From Microbulbifer thermotolerans (GTDB lineage Bacteria; Pseudomonadota; Gammaproteobacteria; Pseudomonadales; Cellvibrionaceae), in the NCBI RefSeq assembly GCF_900112305.1, contig NZ_FOKT01000006.1, positions 62,001 to 126,000 of the forward strand: DNA of 64,000 bases, written 5' to 3'. Below are positions 47,222 through 59,139 of this stretch, piece after piece. The first letter of the stretch is position 1. Every line of letters starts with the position of its first letter. Below the pieces are notes generated by a model that ran no database searches, had not been told where the DNA came from, and was given only the letters and a program-made list of their open reading frames with translations. A program made the position numbers and the translations under genes.

Positions 47222-47250
47222 AAAAAGCCCCGCAATTGCGGGGCTTTTTT
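47222..47250 (+). terminator. Rho-independent terminator of groESL
   Basis: AAGCCCCGCAATTGCGGGGCTTTTTT is a perfect stem followed by a T-run. It is also followed by the end of the integrase remnant from the other side. Confidence 0.92.
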
Positions 47251-47305: not shown

Positions 47306-47662
47306 CTAGGCCGCTCCCGCTTCTGCAATCCCATCCAGCGCCTGCATCCGATCCATTGGGCTCAACACCCCCTTGCCAATGAAGCACTTATACAGGTAAA
47401 CCAGGGCGTTCAATGCAACCCTCTGGGTATTTACCGAACAATCCCTCTGCTGGGAAAGATGTGTGAGAAAGTGCTCCACCTCCGCAGAGCCCATTTCCTG
47501 AGGGTGCCGTTTTTGATGAAAACAGATAAAGCGCCGCACCCAATGGACATAGGTCTGCTCGGTGGTAAATGCCAAGCCGTTCTGGCGAATATGTAGTCGT
47601 AGCATGTCTAAAAAACGCACCGGTTGGGCGGATATCCTGGGGCGAACGTCATCCATGACCAT
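47306..47662 (-). pseudogene. intI: Integron integrase IntI with internal deletion of the catalytic domain
   Basis: The 118-residue frame has the IntI N-terminal SAM-like core-binding domain: FLDMLRLHIRQNGLAFTTEQ, YVHWVRRFICFHQKRHPQEMG, CSVNTQRVALNALVYLYKCF (about residues 17-96). It is followed at once by GVLSPMDRMQ, which fits the extreme C-terminal tail of integron integrases. About 200 residues with the catalytic Arg, Lys, His, Arg, Tyr are absent, without a frameshift. It therefore cannot recombine. ATG 47662 has AGGAG seven bases upstream, and a LexA box lies before it. The usual length is about 320 residues. Confidence 0.85.
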
Positions 47663-47678
47663 GGTAGAGCTCCTGGAA

Positions 47679-47694
47679 CTGTTTTTATATACAG
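47679..47694 (-). promoter_or_regulatory. LexA operator (SOS box) upstream of intI
   Basis: CTGTTTTTATATACAG fits the CTGT-N8-ACAG pattern and lies 17 bp upstream of the intI start codon. Many integron integrases are under LexA/SOS control at this position. Confidence 0.85.
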
Positions 47695-47976
47695 TATTTC
47701 CGCAAGAATGACGATGTCAAGACCGTAATCAGTAGCCAGTGGCTATTGTTCACCGCTGAACAGAGGTTAACTTATTGACTTTAAAGGACGTAGTGATAAA
47801 ACTTGGAGCCAAATAAACAAAAAAGATAACAGGGCGCCAGGCTCGTTTAACTCCGGAAGTTAGATTGACTCGTAAGTTATCTAATTGATTTCAATGGAGA
47901 TTTTTCAGTATGTGGCATTGGGCGCCTGTGAACAAGAGCCAAGGTGATATAGAGCCACTGGCTTTTGAATAAAACT
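47695..47976 (+). other. Integron attI region / possible cassette promoter
   Basis: About 280 bp of AT-rich sequence between intI and the first cassette with no gene. TTGACT (47775-47780) and TAAAAC (47797-47802), 16 bp apart, are a weak candidate for the cassette promoter Pc. The simple attI site would end at GTTATGT (47977-47983), preceded by GAATAAAACT, similar in form to the TAAAACAAA before GTTAGGC in attI1. Confidence 0.45.
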
Positions 47977-47983
47977 GTTATGT
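47977..47983 (+). other. Likely attI/first-cassette recombination point (GTTATGT)
   Basis: A GTTRRRY-type core exactly where the first cassette should join attI. Its ATG is in frame with the first cassette gene. Confidence 0.5.
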
Positions 47984-48897
47984 TTTCATCGAGGAAATCA
48001 GTTCTGAATAAATATAGATATGATCCAGTAGTTACTGGTGTGTTAGTGGGTATCGGTGCACTGGTATTATGGTACTTCTCAGCATTAGCTATAGATAAGA
48101 AGGTGTTGCCTGCCTATTTTGAACACATATCGAGATTCTTTACTGTACTTATAGCTGCATTGGTGGGTGCGTTTGCTGCATTTCGATTCAATTCAATGCT
48201 TGACCATAAAAAGCGTGAGCGCGAGACATCCCAATTTTACTTGGATATTTGCTTAGATAACTACGAGATCTTTTATAAAACTTTAGATGGTTTAAATAAC
48301 GTCAGAGTAGATTGGATATATGCTGCGCGTCTGCTTCTCGAAACTAAAGAGCTAGAAAATGAAATTATCTACAAAGAGCACAGACGAGTGCTTGATGTAA
48401 AGAAAATGAAAGTGCGTCATGATCTTCTGAATCAGTATCAGATCATAGATCACGAGACAAATACAGAAAGCCCTTTGCCAGTTTCATTTTTTTATGGAGT
48501 TGAAAATTGGAGAGATTATATAGACTCTCCCGACGATGCGGCTTATGAGGCTTTTAGGCGAGATCGGCCTGCAACGTTTGGTGAGCATGAGGTATCAAGA
48601 ATAGAGCGACTACCAATGCTTTCAGAGCATAGTGTATACATCGTTTTTGAATTCTTGGCTTGGCCTGATGATTATGATGATCCATTAAGAAAGCATAAAT
48701 ACCCGTCGGAATGGCCGAATGACGTTAAAAACTTTCAGGGTGAAGGCGCTTACAAATATGCAAAACATAGACAGGAGTATGTTCATCCAGAATTTGGGAT
48801 TTCTAAAAAGGCGCAAGAGAAAATTAGAGAAATGATAAAGAATGGTGAGGTTAAAATCGCTGAGGTCATTTCAAAAGATCATGAGAAAAAAACATAA
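47980..48897 (+). CDS. Cassette 1: membrane-anchored protein of unknown function
   Basis: 305 residues, not recognised. Two N-terminal helices (about 20-38 and 53-68: GVLVGIGALVLWYFSALAI, FFTVLIAALVGAFAAFRF) are followed by a long charged cytoplasmic helix-rich region and many Asp/Tyr residues. The chosen ATG lies in the recombination core; a TTG at 47965 is the alternative. AT-rich codon use differs sharply from groEL. The stop codon lies inside the attC R'' core, typical of cassettes. Confidence 0.75.
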   Translation: MFSSRKSVLNKYRYDPVVTGVLVGIGALVLWYFSALAIDKKVLPAYFEHISRFFTVLIAALVGAFAAFRFNSMLDHKKRERETSQFYLDICLDNYEIFYKTLDGLNNVRVDWIYAARLLLETKELENEIIYKEHRRVLDVKKMKVRHDLLNQYQIIDHETNTESPLPVSFFYGVENWRDYIDSPDDAAYEAFRRDRPATFGEHEVSRIERLPMLSEHSVYIVFEFLAWPDDYDDPLRKHKYPSEWPNDVKNFQGEGAYKYAKHRQEYVHPEFGISKKAQEKIREMIKNGEVKIAEVISKDHEKKT

Positions 48898-49008
48898 CAA
48901 ACGGCTCCACGCAGACGCCCAAACCTACGTTCTTTTTGTGGAATTCGCTGCGCTCATTTTACCACAAAAAGCTCTCCGGCTTGGGCGCTGGTGAGCCGGA
49001 CGTTATGC
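48892..49008 (+). other. attC site of cassette 1
   Basis: R'' ending TAAC (48892-48898), R' GTTATGC (49002-49008), 117 bp. Outer arms ACGGCTC and GAGCCGG pair, and an inner TTTTTGTGG/CCACAAAAA pairing is clear. Confidence 0.85.
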
Positions 49009-49017
49009 ATACGAACG

Positions 49018-49476
49018 ATGCAACGACTAGATAATCCTTCAAGTTTCTATGGCTGGGCTGCAATTGTTGTTGGTGGGTTGTTTCTATCGTTGAGCATTTT
49101 CTTACTGGCCAACCTTCCTTCAGCGAAAGAAATGAAGCTATTCCGCGGAGTTGTTGAAAGATCGGAACTAAAGTCCGGAGGTAAAGGTAGCGATATTTTT
49201 TTGCTATCTGTAGATGGAGAGAAATTCCGATATTCTGGCTTCTGGAGTAAAGATGTTTATAAATCCATAGTAGGTGGATCTGAAGTAGGGCTTAATTACT
49301 ATAGGTCACTCGATGGTAACAACCAATTGGTATCATTGAGAGTCGGTAACACTAAAGTATTAAGTAAATTTCAGTCTTTATCTAGTATCGTTGTATTCGC
49401 AAGTGCCGGCATTTTGATCAGTTTATTATTTATTTTTACAGGCCTCCGTGACCTCCGGAAGCTACGGAACGCATAA
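49018..49476 (+). CDS. Cassette 2: two-helix membrane protein of unknown function
   Basis: 152 residues. One helix near residues 12-30 (AAIVVGGLFLSLSIFLLANL) and another near 120-140 flank a ~80-residue soluble domain with beta pattern, a layout like DUF3592-type proteins (weak resemblance). ATG 49018 is chosen; an in-frame GTG lies in attC. No function can be given. Confidence 0.7.
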   Translation: MQRLDNPSSFYGWAAIVVGGLFLSLSIFLLANLPSAKEMKLFRGVVERSELKSGGKGSDIFLLSVDGEKFRYSGFWSKDVYKSIVGGSEVGLNYYRSLDGNNQLVSLRVGNTKVLSKFQSLSSIVVFASAGILISLLFIFTGLRDLRKLRNA

Positions 49477-49590
49477 CAAACAGCGGCAGAGCGACAGCCA
49501 ACGCTACGCACCTTTTGCGTTACTCGCTAGCGCTCAAACATTAACACAAAAGGAGCTCCGCGCTGGCTGCGCCTGCGCTGAGCGTTAGGG
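49471..49590 (+). other. attC site of cassette 2
   Basis: R'' GCATAAC (49471-49477), R' GTTAGGG (49584-49590), 120 bp. GCGGCAGAGCGACAGCCA pairs with TGGCTGCGCCTGCGC-type sequence. It is nearly identical to the attC at 56329-56447. Confidence 0.88.
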
Positions 49591-49596
49591 TTCAAA

Positions 49597-50027: not shown

Positions 50028-50118
50028 CCCTAACAAGTTGCTGTTGTCGCAGCGCAAAGGGGCACGCTGCTGGGACGCCTACGCTGACGCTCCGACGCCC
50101 CAAAGCAAGGGGTTACAA
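50028..50118 (+). other. attC site of cassette 3
   Basis: R'' CCCTAAC (50028-50034), R' GTTACAA (50112-50118), 91 bp. AAGTTGCTGTTGTC start as in the attC at 53345. R' departs from consensus at position 4. Confidence 0.75.
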
Positions 50119-50134
50119 GGCATAAGGAGAGAGC

Positions 50135-50651: not shown

Positions 50652-50750
50652 TTGTAACAAGTTACTCAAGTTCACTCTGGCCGCAAAAGGCTCGGCCTCC
50701 GCGGGACAGCCTACACTGCGTTTCGGCTGCCCCTTAGCAAAGCGTTATAG
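50652..50750 (+). other. attC site of cassette 4
   Basis: R'' TTGTAAC (50652-50658), R' GTTATAG (50744-50750), 99 bp with GCCGCAAAAGGCTCGGC-type inner pairing. Confidence 0.75.
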
Positions 50751-50760
50751 GGCGTAAAGG

Positions 50761-51199: not shown

Positions 51200-51292
51200 C
51201 TATAACAATCGGCTGTTATCGCCCCTGCGGGGCTGGGACGGCCTTTCCGCCGCTTCGCGGCTACAAGTTCGCCCTAAAGCCGGGCGTTATAC
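51200..51292 (+). other. attC site of cassette 5
   Basis: R'' CTATAAC (51200-51206), R' GTTATAC (51286-51292), 93 bp. CGGCTGTTATCGCCCC and GCCCTAAAGCCG arms pair in part. Confidence 0.75.
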
Positions 51293-51399
51293 GTACAGAG
51301 AATCGGTCACTTTCGAAAAATTGATCAAAAAGGTATCCTCTCTGGGCCAAGACACCGCCTGGTGAAATAAAGGACAGAAAATCAAAGGAAGGAATCATT

Positions 51400-51717
51400 A
51401 TGCCAAAAATCTATGAGTACCTTGGTATCGTCTTGTTCTTCTATAGCAATGAACACGAGCCCATTCATATCCATGGTAAGTTCAATGGATGAGAAACCAA
51501 GGCCGAGATCCATTTCTTTTCTGGGCGAATTCATAAGGTAACGCTTAAGGATAAGGGACCAGGTTTAGAGCCCAAAAAACGAAAGGAGTTCGAAGAATTT
51601 GTTAAAGCAAACGCTTCTGAGATCGTAGATAAGTGAGTGGATTACTTTGTAAAGAAAAAGCACATTGCTCCCAAGACGATCACTCAAAAGGTGCGAAATG
51701 TCAGAACTATTGGTTAA
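51400..51717 (+). pseudogene. Cassette 6a: DUF4160 protein with two in-frame TGA codons
   Basis: ATG 51400 with GGAAGGAA upstream opens a 105-codon frame matching DUF4160: MPKIYEYLGIVLFFYSNEHEPIHIHGKF, then KAEIHFFSGRIHKV and FEEFVKANASEIVDK. TGA codons fall at codon 31 (51490-51492) and codon 79 (51634-51636). The second stands where relatives have Trp (DK-W-VDYF from memory), so TGG to TGA is likely. The last 20 bp overlap the DUF2442 start. DUF4160/DUF2442 pairs are common and often suggested to be toxin-antitoxin-like. Confidence 0.75.
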
Positions 51718-51952
51718 ATCCGCCAAGCATAAAATTGGTCACATACTGGAAATAAAATTTAATGATGGCCATGTTGCTTGTGTCGATTTTGCTCCATTTA
51801 TATTTTCAAATGGGCATCCTGATTATGAGCCGTATAAATCGGTAGAAAATTTTCTTGATTTTGAGATAGTGGATGGGAACTTAAATTGGGATGATTACAC
51901 GATGATTTTTCCAGTAGAAGACCTTTATAATAATCGGCTTATTAAACGCTGA
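51698..51952 (+). CDS. Cassette 6b: DUF2442 domain protein
   Basis: 84 residues: MSELLVKSAKHKIGHILEIKF, NDGHVACVDFAPF, then NLNWDDYTMIFPVEDLYNN, the core of DUF2442. Intact, unlike its DUF4160 partner. The ATG at 51698 lies inside the 3' end of that gene. If the pair is toxin-antitoxin-like, survival of only this member would fit loss of the other; that is inference. Confidence 0.82.
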   Translation: MSELLVKSAKHKIGHILEIKFNDGHVACVDFAPFIFSNGHPDYEPYKSVENFLDFEIVDGNLNWDDYTMIFPVEDLYNNRLIKR

Positions 51953-51974: not shown

Positions 51975-52050
51975 GTATAACCAGTAGCGTCAGTCGGATC
52001 GGTTTGTCGTGCTGCGCCCGCCAAACCGCCCGCTGCGCATGGCGTTATGC
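51975..52050 (+). other. attC site of cassette 6
   Basis: R'' GTATAAC (51975-51981), R' GTTATGC (52044-52050), 76 bp. GGCGTTATGC right end and CGGTTTGTCG/CGCCAAACCG pairing. Confidence 0.75.
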
Positions 52051-52071
52051 TAAATCAGGTCATGGACAAAT

Positions 52072-52689: not shown

Positions 52690-52810
52690 AAATAGAGGTT
52701 ATGTGCCATTAAAAAAGGGATATAAGCCCGGTGATAGCCCTGCGACAGCTGGCCACAAGCCTGAAAAAAGTGAACTGGCAAAACCGGTTAATCCGCCAAA
52801 GAAAAAATAG
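52670..52810 (+). CDS. Cassette 7b: small Lys/Pro-rich protein paired with DUF6338
   Basis: 46 residues: MTEKKTENRGYVPLKKGYKP and a KPEKSELAKPVNPPKKK tail. It overlaps the DUF6338 gene by 20 bp. Small proteins with RGYxPxxKGYxP motifs next to DUF6338 genes occur elsewhere (recollection), so this is probably a true partner. The stop sits in the attC R'' core. Confidence 0.65.
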   Translation: MTEKKTENRGYVPLKKGYKPGDSPATAGHKPEKSELAKPVNPPKKK

Positions 52811-52923
52811 CATAACAATACGTGCCAGAGGGACCTACGTTGCGGCGCTTGATTTTGTGCTGGTCGCTACGCTTGCACAAAAGCCAATCGCCTCCACTCC
52901 GGCCCCTGCACTTGGCGTTATGC
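52810..52923 (+). other. attC site of cassette 7
   Basis: R'' GCATAAC (52810-52816), R' GTTATGC (52917-52923), 114 bp; TTTTGTGC/GCACAAAA inner pairing. Confidence 0.85.
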
Positions 52924-52933
52924 GTTCTAAATA

Positions 52934-53350
52934 ATGAGCATTGAGAATAAGCTGAAAGAACGGGTTTCCTATCATTCGGGTGTAAAGGCCGAAGATGTAT
53001 CATCTGAGATGTATTTAGAAGGTGATCTTGGCATAACCGGAGATGATGCGTTCGAATTAATTGAAGACATTCAGAAACTGTTTGATCTTGATTTGACTGA
53101 ATTTGATTTCAGTCTTCACTTTGTCCCAGAGGCAGGTGGAATCAAAAATTCAGAGTATGGCTATTATCCTGTTTCTGTTGGTCATCTAATTGAGGTTTGC
53201 AATAGAAAATCTTGGTTCTTACCAGATAGAGATCTGGAGAATCACCAGAAGTTTAAAAGAGCTTTACTAGTACAAAATGTACTAGCTATTGGTGTCTTTA
53301 CTTGTGTGTTAATGGCAATCTTATTGGTATTGTCCAATGAATGCGCATAA
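52934..53350 (+). CDS. Cassette 8: DUF1493 (acyl-carrier-like) protein with C-terminal membrane helix
   Basis: 138 residues. The first ~70 (VSYHSGVKAEDVSSEMYLEGDLGITGDDAFELIEDIQKLFDLDLTEFDF) follow the DUF1493 pattern, related to acyl carrier proteins (LGITGDDA in place of the phosphopantetheine DSL region). A single hydrophobic helix near the end (VLAIGVFTCVLMAILLVLS) anchors it in the membrane. There is no Ser for phosphopantetheine at the usual place, so carrier function is doubtful. Confidence 0.75.
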   Translation: MSIENKLKERVSYHSGVKAEDVSSEMYLEGDLGITGDDAFELIEDIQKLFDLDLTEFDFSLHFVPEAGGIKNSEYGYYPVSVGHLIEVCNRKSWFLPDRDLENHQKFKRALLVQNVLAIGVFTCVLMAILLVLSNECA

Positions 53351-53416
53351 CAAGTTGCTGTTGTCGGACGCACCTGCGCTGGCGCTCCGGTACGCCGCAA
53401 ATCCATGGCGTTAACT
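53345..53416 (+). other. attC site of cassette 8
   Basis: R'' GCATAAC (53345-53351), R' GTTAACT (53410-53416), 72 bp, short-type site with GCGCTGGCGC loop. Confidence 0.8.
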
Positions 53417-53420
53417 GCCT

Positions 53421-54830: not shown

Positions 54831-55800
54831 CCCGGCTGTAGCTATCAATCACTTCTTCCGCAGTCAGACTGATGTTCGTCGAGAGCAGTAATCGTTCGGC
54901 CTTCGAGTCTTGTTTTTTGCTGTCCCAGTATTCGCACCAGACCGCGCGTACCTGCCGACCACTTAAGAACCGGGCCATGAGCACCTTGCTGCGATAGCGG
55001 ACCTTCTGCTAGCGCCCATGCAGCCAAAGGGTGACTTCGGTTCTCTTCAGGTGCGCTGGGGTATAAGGATCTCCGTATTTCCTGGGGCGACCGCGTTGCC
55101 CGGGCTTTCTCGGTGGCGGGCTATCGCATAGCCGGGTATCTATACGCACTTGACCGATCACCGCGAAACCATAACCACACAGGGTTTCTATCAAACTTTG
55201 CCGCATGTACCAGCAGTCCATCAGTACCCGAACCGGCTTGCCCAAAAATCGCTGGTATATGGCGCGAATCAGCACCTGCGCCGCTCTCAACTTGCCGGTG
55301 TTACCGGCGCTTGGGCTCAGCCGGTTCAACAGCGGTATGGCCACAAACTGCCGGGCTCCGCGCTTGACTACCATCTCCAGGCTGACAAAACATTGGCCTC
55401 GTACGAATTTCGCCAAATTGGTTTTGTTGCCGTGCTGGTGGTGTATCTGGCTGGCCGGTGCCTTCTTTGATGCCCTTAGAGTCAGGGTGTCGTCAATGGC
55501 CAGATGGATGACTTCCTCACCATGTAAGGACAACGCTAACCGCAAAAACTGATTCACCAGCGCGAGCCATGACCACTTTCCCTTCTGTAACCACTTGTAG
55601 TAACTAGTCCAGTGGTTGCGCATATCCAACATCAGGTAGGCCTCGGTTACAAAGCCTGCGGGTGTCAGCATGGCGCCGATCAGCAGTTCGATAAAAGTGC
55701 GCACCGACCTCGCAGGTAGACTTTGTGCTAGAAATGTAATCCAATTAAGCAGTTCGCGAGGGATTTTGGCCCATCTCTTCGCGTTCATTGCGGCCTCCAG
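54831..55800 (-). pseudogene. IS4/IS701-like DDE transposase remnant with an amber stop
   Basis: The 259-residue frame from ATG 55788 shows a DDE-type domain: HLAIDDTLTLRASKKAP with the first Asp and VLMDCWYMRQSLIETL with the second. It stops at TAG (55009-55011). The same frame then continues (QKVRYRSKVLMARFLSG, ERLLLSTNISLTAEEVIDSYSR) up to about 54835, where IS110 sequence begins; the third acidic residue region is lost. Family placement (IS4 or IS701) is by motif only. Confidence 0.7.
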
Positions 55801-56328: not shown

Positions 56329-56447
56329 GCATAAAAATCAGCGGCAGAGCGACAGCCAACGCTACGCACCTTTTGTGCTGCTCGCTGGCGCTCAAACATT
56401 AACACAAAAGTGCTCCTCGCTGGCTGCGCCTGCGCTGGGCGTTATGC
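56329..56447 (+). other. attC site of cassette 11
   Basis: Left core GCATAAA (56329-56335, last base changed), R' GTTATGC (56441-56447), 119 bp. Nearly identical to the attC at 49471-49590. Confidence 0.82.
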
Positions 56448-56471
56448 ATTATTAGAGAAAATTGAAAAAAT

Positions 56472-56764: not shown

Positions 56765-56879
56765 GCATAACCAACTCAGCCAGGCAGGACATCCGTTCTG
56801 TCGTTGATTTATGCAGTTGGCGCTACGCTACCGCAAAAACCAACAACTCCACTGTGGCCCATGCTGCAGGGCGTTATAA
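56765..56879 (+). other. attC site of cassette 12
   Basis: R'' GCATAAC (56765-56771), R' GTTATAA (56873-56879), 115 bp. Confidence 0.8.
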
Positions 56880-56884
56880 ATCGA

Positions 56885-57113: not shown

Positions 57114-57246
57114 TTATAACAAGGCCAGACAGTTTGCTACAGGCCTTCGGCCCTCCGTGGGACGGCTTACCTTGTGCGCGTTTTGCGCATCCCAGTTTCG
57201 CGCAAAAGGCGCACAAGTTAAGCTTCCCCTGCTGGCGGCGTTAGGG
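57114..57246 (+). other. attC site of cassette 13
   Basis: R'' TTATAAC (57114-57120), R' GTTAGGG (57240-57246), 133 bp. Its left half matches the truncated attC at 62386. Confidence 0.82.
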
Positions 57247-57253
57247 CACATAT

Positions 57254-57958: not shown

Positions 57959-58096
57959 CCCTAACAAATTGCTGCAGTTCGTTCGGGCGCTTCGCGTCTC
58001 CACCGGACAGTCAAAGCTGTGCGCCTTTTGTGTATTTGCTTCGCGTGTCACACAAAAGTCACCCAACTTTTCCTGCCTCTGAGCAAGGAGTTATGT
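57959..58096 (+). other. attC site of cassette 14
   Basis: R'' CCCTAAC (57959-57965), R' GTTATGT (58090-58096), 138 bp, the longest site here; TTTTGTGT/ACACAAAA inner pairing. Confidence 0.8.
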
Positions 58097-58103
58097 GAAA
58101 TAA

Positions 58104-58545: not shown

Positions 58546-58605
58546 GCATAACAATCACAGGCAGTCGACGCGAAAAAGCCCGCGCAACTGCTACAAGTGT
58601 TAACT
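58546..58605 (+). other. attC site of cassette 15
   Basis: R'' GCATAAC (58546-58552), R' GTTAACT (58599-58605), 60 bp, short type. Confidence 0.75.
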
Positions 58606-58617
58606 CTATGAGGCCGC

Positions 58618-59139
58618 ATGGAAGAAATATTTAACTGGGTAAGACCAATACTTAGCGGGTTAGCGGGCGGACTCTTTGTCTGGGCGTTAGTCGCATTCAC
58701 TAAAGATCAAGGAAAGCATGAAGGCAGTATAAGACATCTACATTACGGGAAGCCTTTCAAGATATTTGCTTTGCTGCTAATTCCTTTTTCCGTTTTCGTG
58801 GTCTATGCAGTTTCCCAATCATATAAAGGTCAAGAAATACCGGCGTTTCTTGTTGCATTGGGTTTTGTTTCGGGTGCCATATTTTTCCCTTACCAAGCTT
58901 TCTTCGTAAGGTTTAGCTACGATGACGAATTCGTTTATTATAAAAGCCCCTTGGTGGGAACAAAGAAAGAGCCGTGGGGTAATCTCATAGATGTAGGTTA
59001 CTCTAAACTACTCCAAGCTGACTTCATTGTGGTTGATGGCATTGGGAAAATCTGGTGTTCGAATATGCTTAATGGGTATGGTGAGCTTGGTGAGTTTCTT
59101 GAGAAGAAGGTTCAAGAGCTATATCCAGAGCAGAGTTAA
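58618..59139 (+). CDS. Cassette 16: membrane protein with PH-like C-terminal part
   Basis: 173 residues. Helices at about 10-26, 49-66 and 75-92, then a beta-rich region (RFSYDDEFVYYKSPLVGTKKEPWGNLIDVGY) resembling bacterial PH-like domains. Its stop codon is part of a TTAA at which a foldback element inserted, so the site of insertion is the R'' core of its own attC. Confidence 0.7.
   Translation: MEEIFNWVRPILSGLAGGLFVWALVAFTKDQGKHEGSIRHLHYGKPFKIFALLLIPFSVFVVYAVSQSYKGQEIPAFLVALGFVSGAIFFPYQAFFVRFSYDDEFVYYKSPLVGTKKEPWGNLIDVGYSKLLQADFIVVDGIGKIWCSNMLNGYGELGEFLEKKVQELYPEQS

Follow-up and report, generated by a model that had tools for sequence, protein, structure and literature searches.

In one survey about 43-46% of integron integrase genes (intI) were predicted to be inactive and inactivity correlated with loss of control by LexA; deletions longer than 100 bp were ignored in that survey (Cambray et al. 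2011, PMC3108266). In Xanthomonas, intI is reported to have been inactivated by frameshifts, stop codons or large deletions (PMC12444791). In Acinetobacter baylyi, activity of the integrase carried a cost, and intI1 genes with frameshifts arose (PMC3510236). Here we describe an intI remnant found next to groEL in a 64,000-nucleotide stretch of Microbulbifer thermotolerans DNA (contig NZ_FOKT01000006.1, positions 62,001 to 126,000). This whole stretch is referred to below as the window, and window positions are contig coordinates minus 62000. We are confident that a single frame-keeping deletion killed the integrase of this groEL-linked chromosomal integron, turning its gene into a pseudogene.

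The locus resembles the chromosomal integrons surveyed by Cambray et al. in that intI is dead and the cassettes have been kept; here, 672 bp are deleted and the LexA box remains intact. It also resembles the ilvD-linked integrons of Xanthomonas, ancestral integrons at a fixed chromosomal site in which intI was lost, in some cases by large deletions. However, the genus and the site (here groEL) are different, and here the reading frame was kept across the deletion. The A. baylyi case is comparable in that a functional integrase imposes a cost and inactive intI becomes more frequent, but there the frameshifts were in the first quarter of intI1 and the class 1 integron had been newly acquired. 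The IntI of Microbulbifer rhizosphaerae CECT 8799 (L033/L060) matches the remnant in locus, promoter, LexA box, N-terminal domain and tail and differs in being full length, with a catalytic domain. The remnant is a known kind of intI inactivation event with a tidier break.

An integrase gene without its catalytic domain

The remnant and its parts are located as follows.

47306..47662, minus strand: intI remnant of 118 codons (open reading frame and profile matches)
47378..47662, minus strand: core-binding (SAM-like) domain, remnant residues 1-95 (82% identity to M. rhizosphaerae IntI residues 1-95; AlphaFold2 four-helix fold like the N-domain of 2a3v)
47377..47378, minus strand: deletion junction (abutting alignments to the orthologue)
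47306..47377, minus strand: C-terminal tail GKGVLSPMDRMQALDGIAEAGAA and stop codon (71% identity to M. rhizosphaerae IntI residues 320-343)

The open reading frame runs from ATG to TAG on the minus strand (47662..47306) with no internal stop codons and no frameshifts. Profile searches matched Phage_int_SAM_4 (PF13495) to residues 17-96 with an E value of 2.7e-25, and positions 1-83 of the 315 in the integron integrase profile TIGR02249 to residues 17-99 with an E value of 5.4e-24. The score against TIGR02249 was 85.1 bits, below the curated cut-off of 265 bits, and the remnant does not qualify as a full-length functional IntI. It does possess the N-terminal core-binding domain of IntI, as judged by PF13495 and by a fold match to 2a3v. 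AlphaFold2 predicted a confident four-helix domain at residues 15-95 (predicted local distance difference test mostly 88-94) and a poorly defined tail. The best match of the core-binding domain among solved structures was VchIntIA (2a3v, E 5e-16), with whose N-domain the model superimposed at a TM score of 0.72-0.74 and a root-mean-square deviation of 1.3 over 88-90 columns. On this match the fragment could fold.

The extent of the deletion was determined with the intact 347-amino-acid IntI of M. rhizosphaerae, which was used to query the M. thermotolerans genome. Residues 1-95 aligned to C13:109378-109662 (window 47662-47378) and residues 320-343 to C13:109306-109377 (window 47377-47306). The two matches abut exactly, so that residues 96-319, i.e. 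224 codons or 672 bp, are missing at 47378/47377, and the codons across the junction read TTC ATT/GGC AAG. The cut sits at a domain edge, directly after the last helix of the core-binding domain. In codon view no microhomology longer than about 1 bp could be demonstrated at the junction, the ancestral sequence not being known. The catalytic R, K, HxxR, H and Y of tyrosine recombinases are all absent from the remnant: the missing segment holds the motifs LRSAEL, GKGNK, HAFRH, LLGH and IYTH. When the catalytic half was sought elsewhere in the genome, only XerC/XerD-like proteins and one unrelated phage-type recombinase were found.

Taken alone, the tail match is weak (E 0.026), but its place, its frame and its distance to the groEL terminator are all correct. 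Tails of the form G(V/K)xSPxD close the intact sibling IntI proteins, the GVLSPMD type being present in most intact Microbulbifer integrases, and the C-terminal end of the remnant is about five codons shorter than that of the M. rhizosphaerae orthologue. The initial annotation, which gave no strand, had described an IntI core-binding domain joined in frame to an IntI tail, with all catalytic residues gone, and had left open a mismatch of the last codons with IntI tails. The alignments bear out this description, tail included. In M. rhizosphaerae and its relatives an intact intI occupies the identical site, tail-to-tail with groEL. Both features of an integrase pseudogene formed by internal deletion, a syntenic intact orthologue and contiguous residual ends, were observed.

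No sequence in the genome exceeded the TIGR02249 cut-off, although an intact copy might conceivably lie in a gap of this 30-contig draft. A second intI copy (G000:C14:447199-447627; L002, L105) is broken and retains only about 140 N-terminal residues; a LexA box precedes this copy too, and some five attC-like sites lie close by. The third copy (G000:C18:2175-2288; L003) is a fragment with stop codons, and the remaining tyrosine recombinases are XerC/XerD-like or unrelated. With neither of the other two copies intact, M. thermotolerans seems to be without any integron integrase and has apparently lost integron recombination.

These data can be explained by one deletion that, with the frame kept by luck, would have taken 224 codons of the groEL-linked integrase, sparing the N-terminal domain along with the final 23 codons. 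Under SOS control the cell may still make a short peptide, without consequence. Because such a product cannot cut or rejoin DNA, rearrangement of the downstream cassette array by the integron's own integrase would have ceased. The survival of the promoter, LexA box and attI would be due to their position outside the deletion and to the loss being, as we infer, probably recent. By analogy with Acinetobacter (PMC3510236), the loss may have been near-neutral or may have relieved the cost of an active integrase. The locus is a clean case of a chromosomal integron freezing, with a dead integrase and with promoter, LexA box, attI and cassettes kept. Surveys that are limited to short indels, or that demand a catalytic domain, miss or misfile such genes.

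Frequency of integrase decay in the genus and family

We classed by profile coverage 90 intI matches from 48 Microbulbifer genomes together with the window copy (91 loci in total; the counts are approximate, since some regions may be separate pieces of one decayed gene). Sixty-three were intact; stops, frameshifts or deletions had broken the other 28 (31%). Of the 27 copies at the groEL site 25 were intact, and the two broken ones were the window copy and L061, a close relative's copy interrupted by a nonsense mutation. The tail-to-tail integron at groEL was seen at no fewer than 27 loci in these genomes, at least, and many of the genomes carry a second integron elsewhere.

Internal deletions of at least about 12 codons were present in seven of the 28 broken genes. 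Two of the seven kept the frame, close to the third that chance alone would give. One is the window copy; the other, L126, belongs to the second integron of M. rhizosphaerae and has profile position 86 fused to 226, after which the normal tail is missing. Two further clean in-frame deletions, independent of these, were found in other genera of the family, L159 (G108) with about 90 codons lost and L160 (G069) with about 67. Both take the stretch before HxxR and retain HxxR, H, Y and a normal tail; the lost stretches probably include the IntI-specific insertion. The deletion of the window copy itself was not found in any other species among the 48 genus or 144 family genomes. Judging from these sequences, intI decays by in-frame internal deletion in a minority of cases, but does so repeatedly. 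The view of the initial annotation that a clean internal deletion is markedly unusual was not upheld by these counts or by the Xanthomonas precedent. The remnant is best read as a tidy example of common intI decay in an otherwise well-preserved chromosomal integron.

Probable SOS control and the case for a retained function

The upstream signals of the remnant are listed below.

47670..47674, minus strand: ribosome-binding site AGGAG, 7 nt 5′ of the ATG (sequence)
47679..47694, minus strand: LexA box CTGTATATAAAAACAG, an exact CTGTN8ACAG (kept in groEL-linked siblings; box type also present at the genome's lexA and imuA-like gene)
47693..47720, minus strand: sigma-70-like intI promoter TTGACA/AATACT, hexamers at the ends of the interval (promoter scan with a hit count at chance level; TTGAC conserved in siblings)

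The genome carries lexA, whose own promoter bears CTGTATAAAAATACAG, and an imuA-like gene (named from sequence alone) is preceded by two LexA boxes of the remnant's type. Since lexA itself and the imuA-like gene carry such boxes, the LexA of this genome appears to use the remnant's box type. Both elements of a LexA-regulated promoter, a box within the promoter and a LexA that appears to use that box, were identified for the remnant, and its SOS control is a good inference. Earlier claims that the start codon, ribosome-binding site and LexA box are intact and that SOS control is plausible thus hold. However, exact or one-mismatch LexA boxes were found at 14 of 17 assessable broken Microbulbifer intI genes, compared with 60 of 63 intact ones. 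A LexA-like box survives at most dead copies and is therefore not evidence that function has been retained.

Some observations weigh against simple decay. All 118 codons are open, and in comparison with two close siblings most codon changes are silent (11 synonymous to 4 non-synonymous), which fits constraint as well as recent loss. Codons altered only in the window copy comprise these 11 synonymous and 4 non-synonymous changes; a sibling has 14 and 4. In a branch model, omega (dN/dS, the ratio of non-synonymous to synonymous substitution rates) was 0.10 for the window branch and 0.05 for the background (p 0.18 against background, p 0.17 against 1). The model has no power here: synonymous substitutions have reached saturation even in the comparison with the nearest species, and for this reason dN/dS is unable to separate recent loss from constraint. 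The window copy departs from 80%-conserved columns at eight positions, mostly conservatively, and just one of 36 intact comparison copies reaches eight. The substitution data are in keeping with recent loss and fall short of demonstrating that selection has continued.

It is conceivable, though unlikely, that the 5′ part of intI has been kept not for a protein but for a cassette promoter (Pc) in that or adjacent DNA, a reading compatible with loss of the integrase by a single deletion. In class 1 integrons Pc is located within intI. In the window all sequence preceding codon 95 is intact, as is the attI region, and the nearest siblings share a conserved TTGACTTTAAAGG element located between intI and attI. 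However, a plus-strand promoter scan found no promoter facing the cassettes, and conservation of this DNA is inseparable from coding constraint or recency.

The initial annotation also proposed that a small DNA-binding fragment is still made. Structure prediction gives the fragment the IntI N-domain fold; a functional product is conjecture, with no clear sign of selection. On this proposal an SOS-induced peptide would bind attI or attC and repress transcription of the cassettes or from the integrase promoter without recombining, which we consider very improbable. The intact start, ribosome-binding site, promoter and LexA box, the four-helix fold, the cut right at the domain edge and the excess of synonymous changes favour it. 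Against it, the deletion occurs in one species only among the 144 family genomes, the genome is without an intact partner integrase to inhibit, the omega of the branch differs significantly from neither 0.05 nor 1, and the count of conserved-column departures is about the highest seen. The literature searched yielded no precedent for an isolated IntI N-domain that still works. A stand-alone SOS-induced core-binding domain that would bind attI or attC and repress or protect the frozen array is a model to which we give hardly any credence, and nothing supports a job for the leftover fragment; were it to have one, it would represent a novel type of integron regulator.

Loss of about 670 bp from a full-length gene during assembly is scarcely credible: the assembly is a draft of 30 contigs, but the junction lies within a contig of 374 kb, the ends show no demonstrable direct repeat of more than about 1 bp that might drive a collapse, and the missing segment is found nowhere else in the assembly. 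Nor is a chimera of two intI copies indicated, as the N-terminal part is 82% identical to the orthologue of the nearest species and the genome's other copy 52%.

The attI site and the cassette array

The remnant is flanked by a terminator on one side and by attI on the other.

47222..47249, no strand assigned: hairpin terminator separating groEL from the intI remnant
47977..47983, plus strand: attI crossover core GTTATGT (sibling homology stops here and cassette 1 begins)

The attC sites were detected with a covariance model built from eight sites read by eye. In earlier scans the folding approach was noisy and a strict arm-complementarity search recovered none of the window sites. The array, entirely on the plus strand, extends from 48892 to at least 58098 and contains 11 sites at E below 1e-4, of which eight are the training sites, plus two weaker ones.

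48892..49010, plus strand: attC site of cassette 1 (training site)
49471..49592, plus strand: attC site 2 (training site)
50028..50120, plus strand: attC site 3 (training site)
50652..50752, plus strand: attC site 4 (training site)
51200..51294, plus strand: attC site 5 (training site)
51975..52052, plus strand: attC site 6 (training site)
52810..52925, plus strand: attC site 7 (training site)
53345..53418, plus strand: attC site 8 (training site)
56329..56449, plus strand: attC site outside the training set (covariance model, E 1.2e-16)
56765..56881, plus strand: attC-like site (covariance model, E 2e-5)
57959..58098, plus strand: attC-like site (covariance model, E 2.5e-6)
57114-57248, plus strand: weaker attC-like site (covariance model)
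58546-58694, plus strand: weaker attC-like site (covariance model)

With 11-13 attC sites in one orientation, an attI and an intI, the locus has the components of a chromosomal integron, the integrase itself not being functional.

Palindromes of the form AGCC-N3-GGCT, for example AGCCAGTGGCT and AGCCACTGGCT, are repeated between intI and attI, both in the window (47662-47980) and in siblings L060-L073. Their position is conserved and their centre differs among species; they are possibly binding sites of the integrase or of a regulator. A DDE_5 transposase gene (55009-55788, minus strand) lies inside the cassette array, which continues beyond it with the attC site at 56329. The cassette at 51401-51952 carries a DUF2442 gene, upstream of which a frame starting at 51401 is broken twice by TGA; this interrupted frame appears to resemble the DUF4160 partner of DUF2442.
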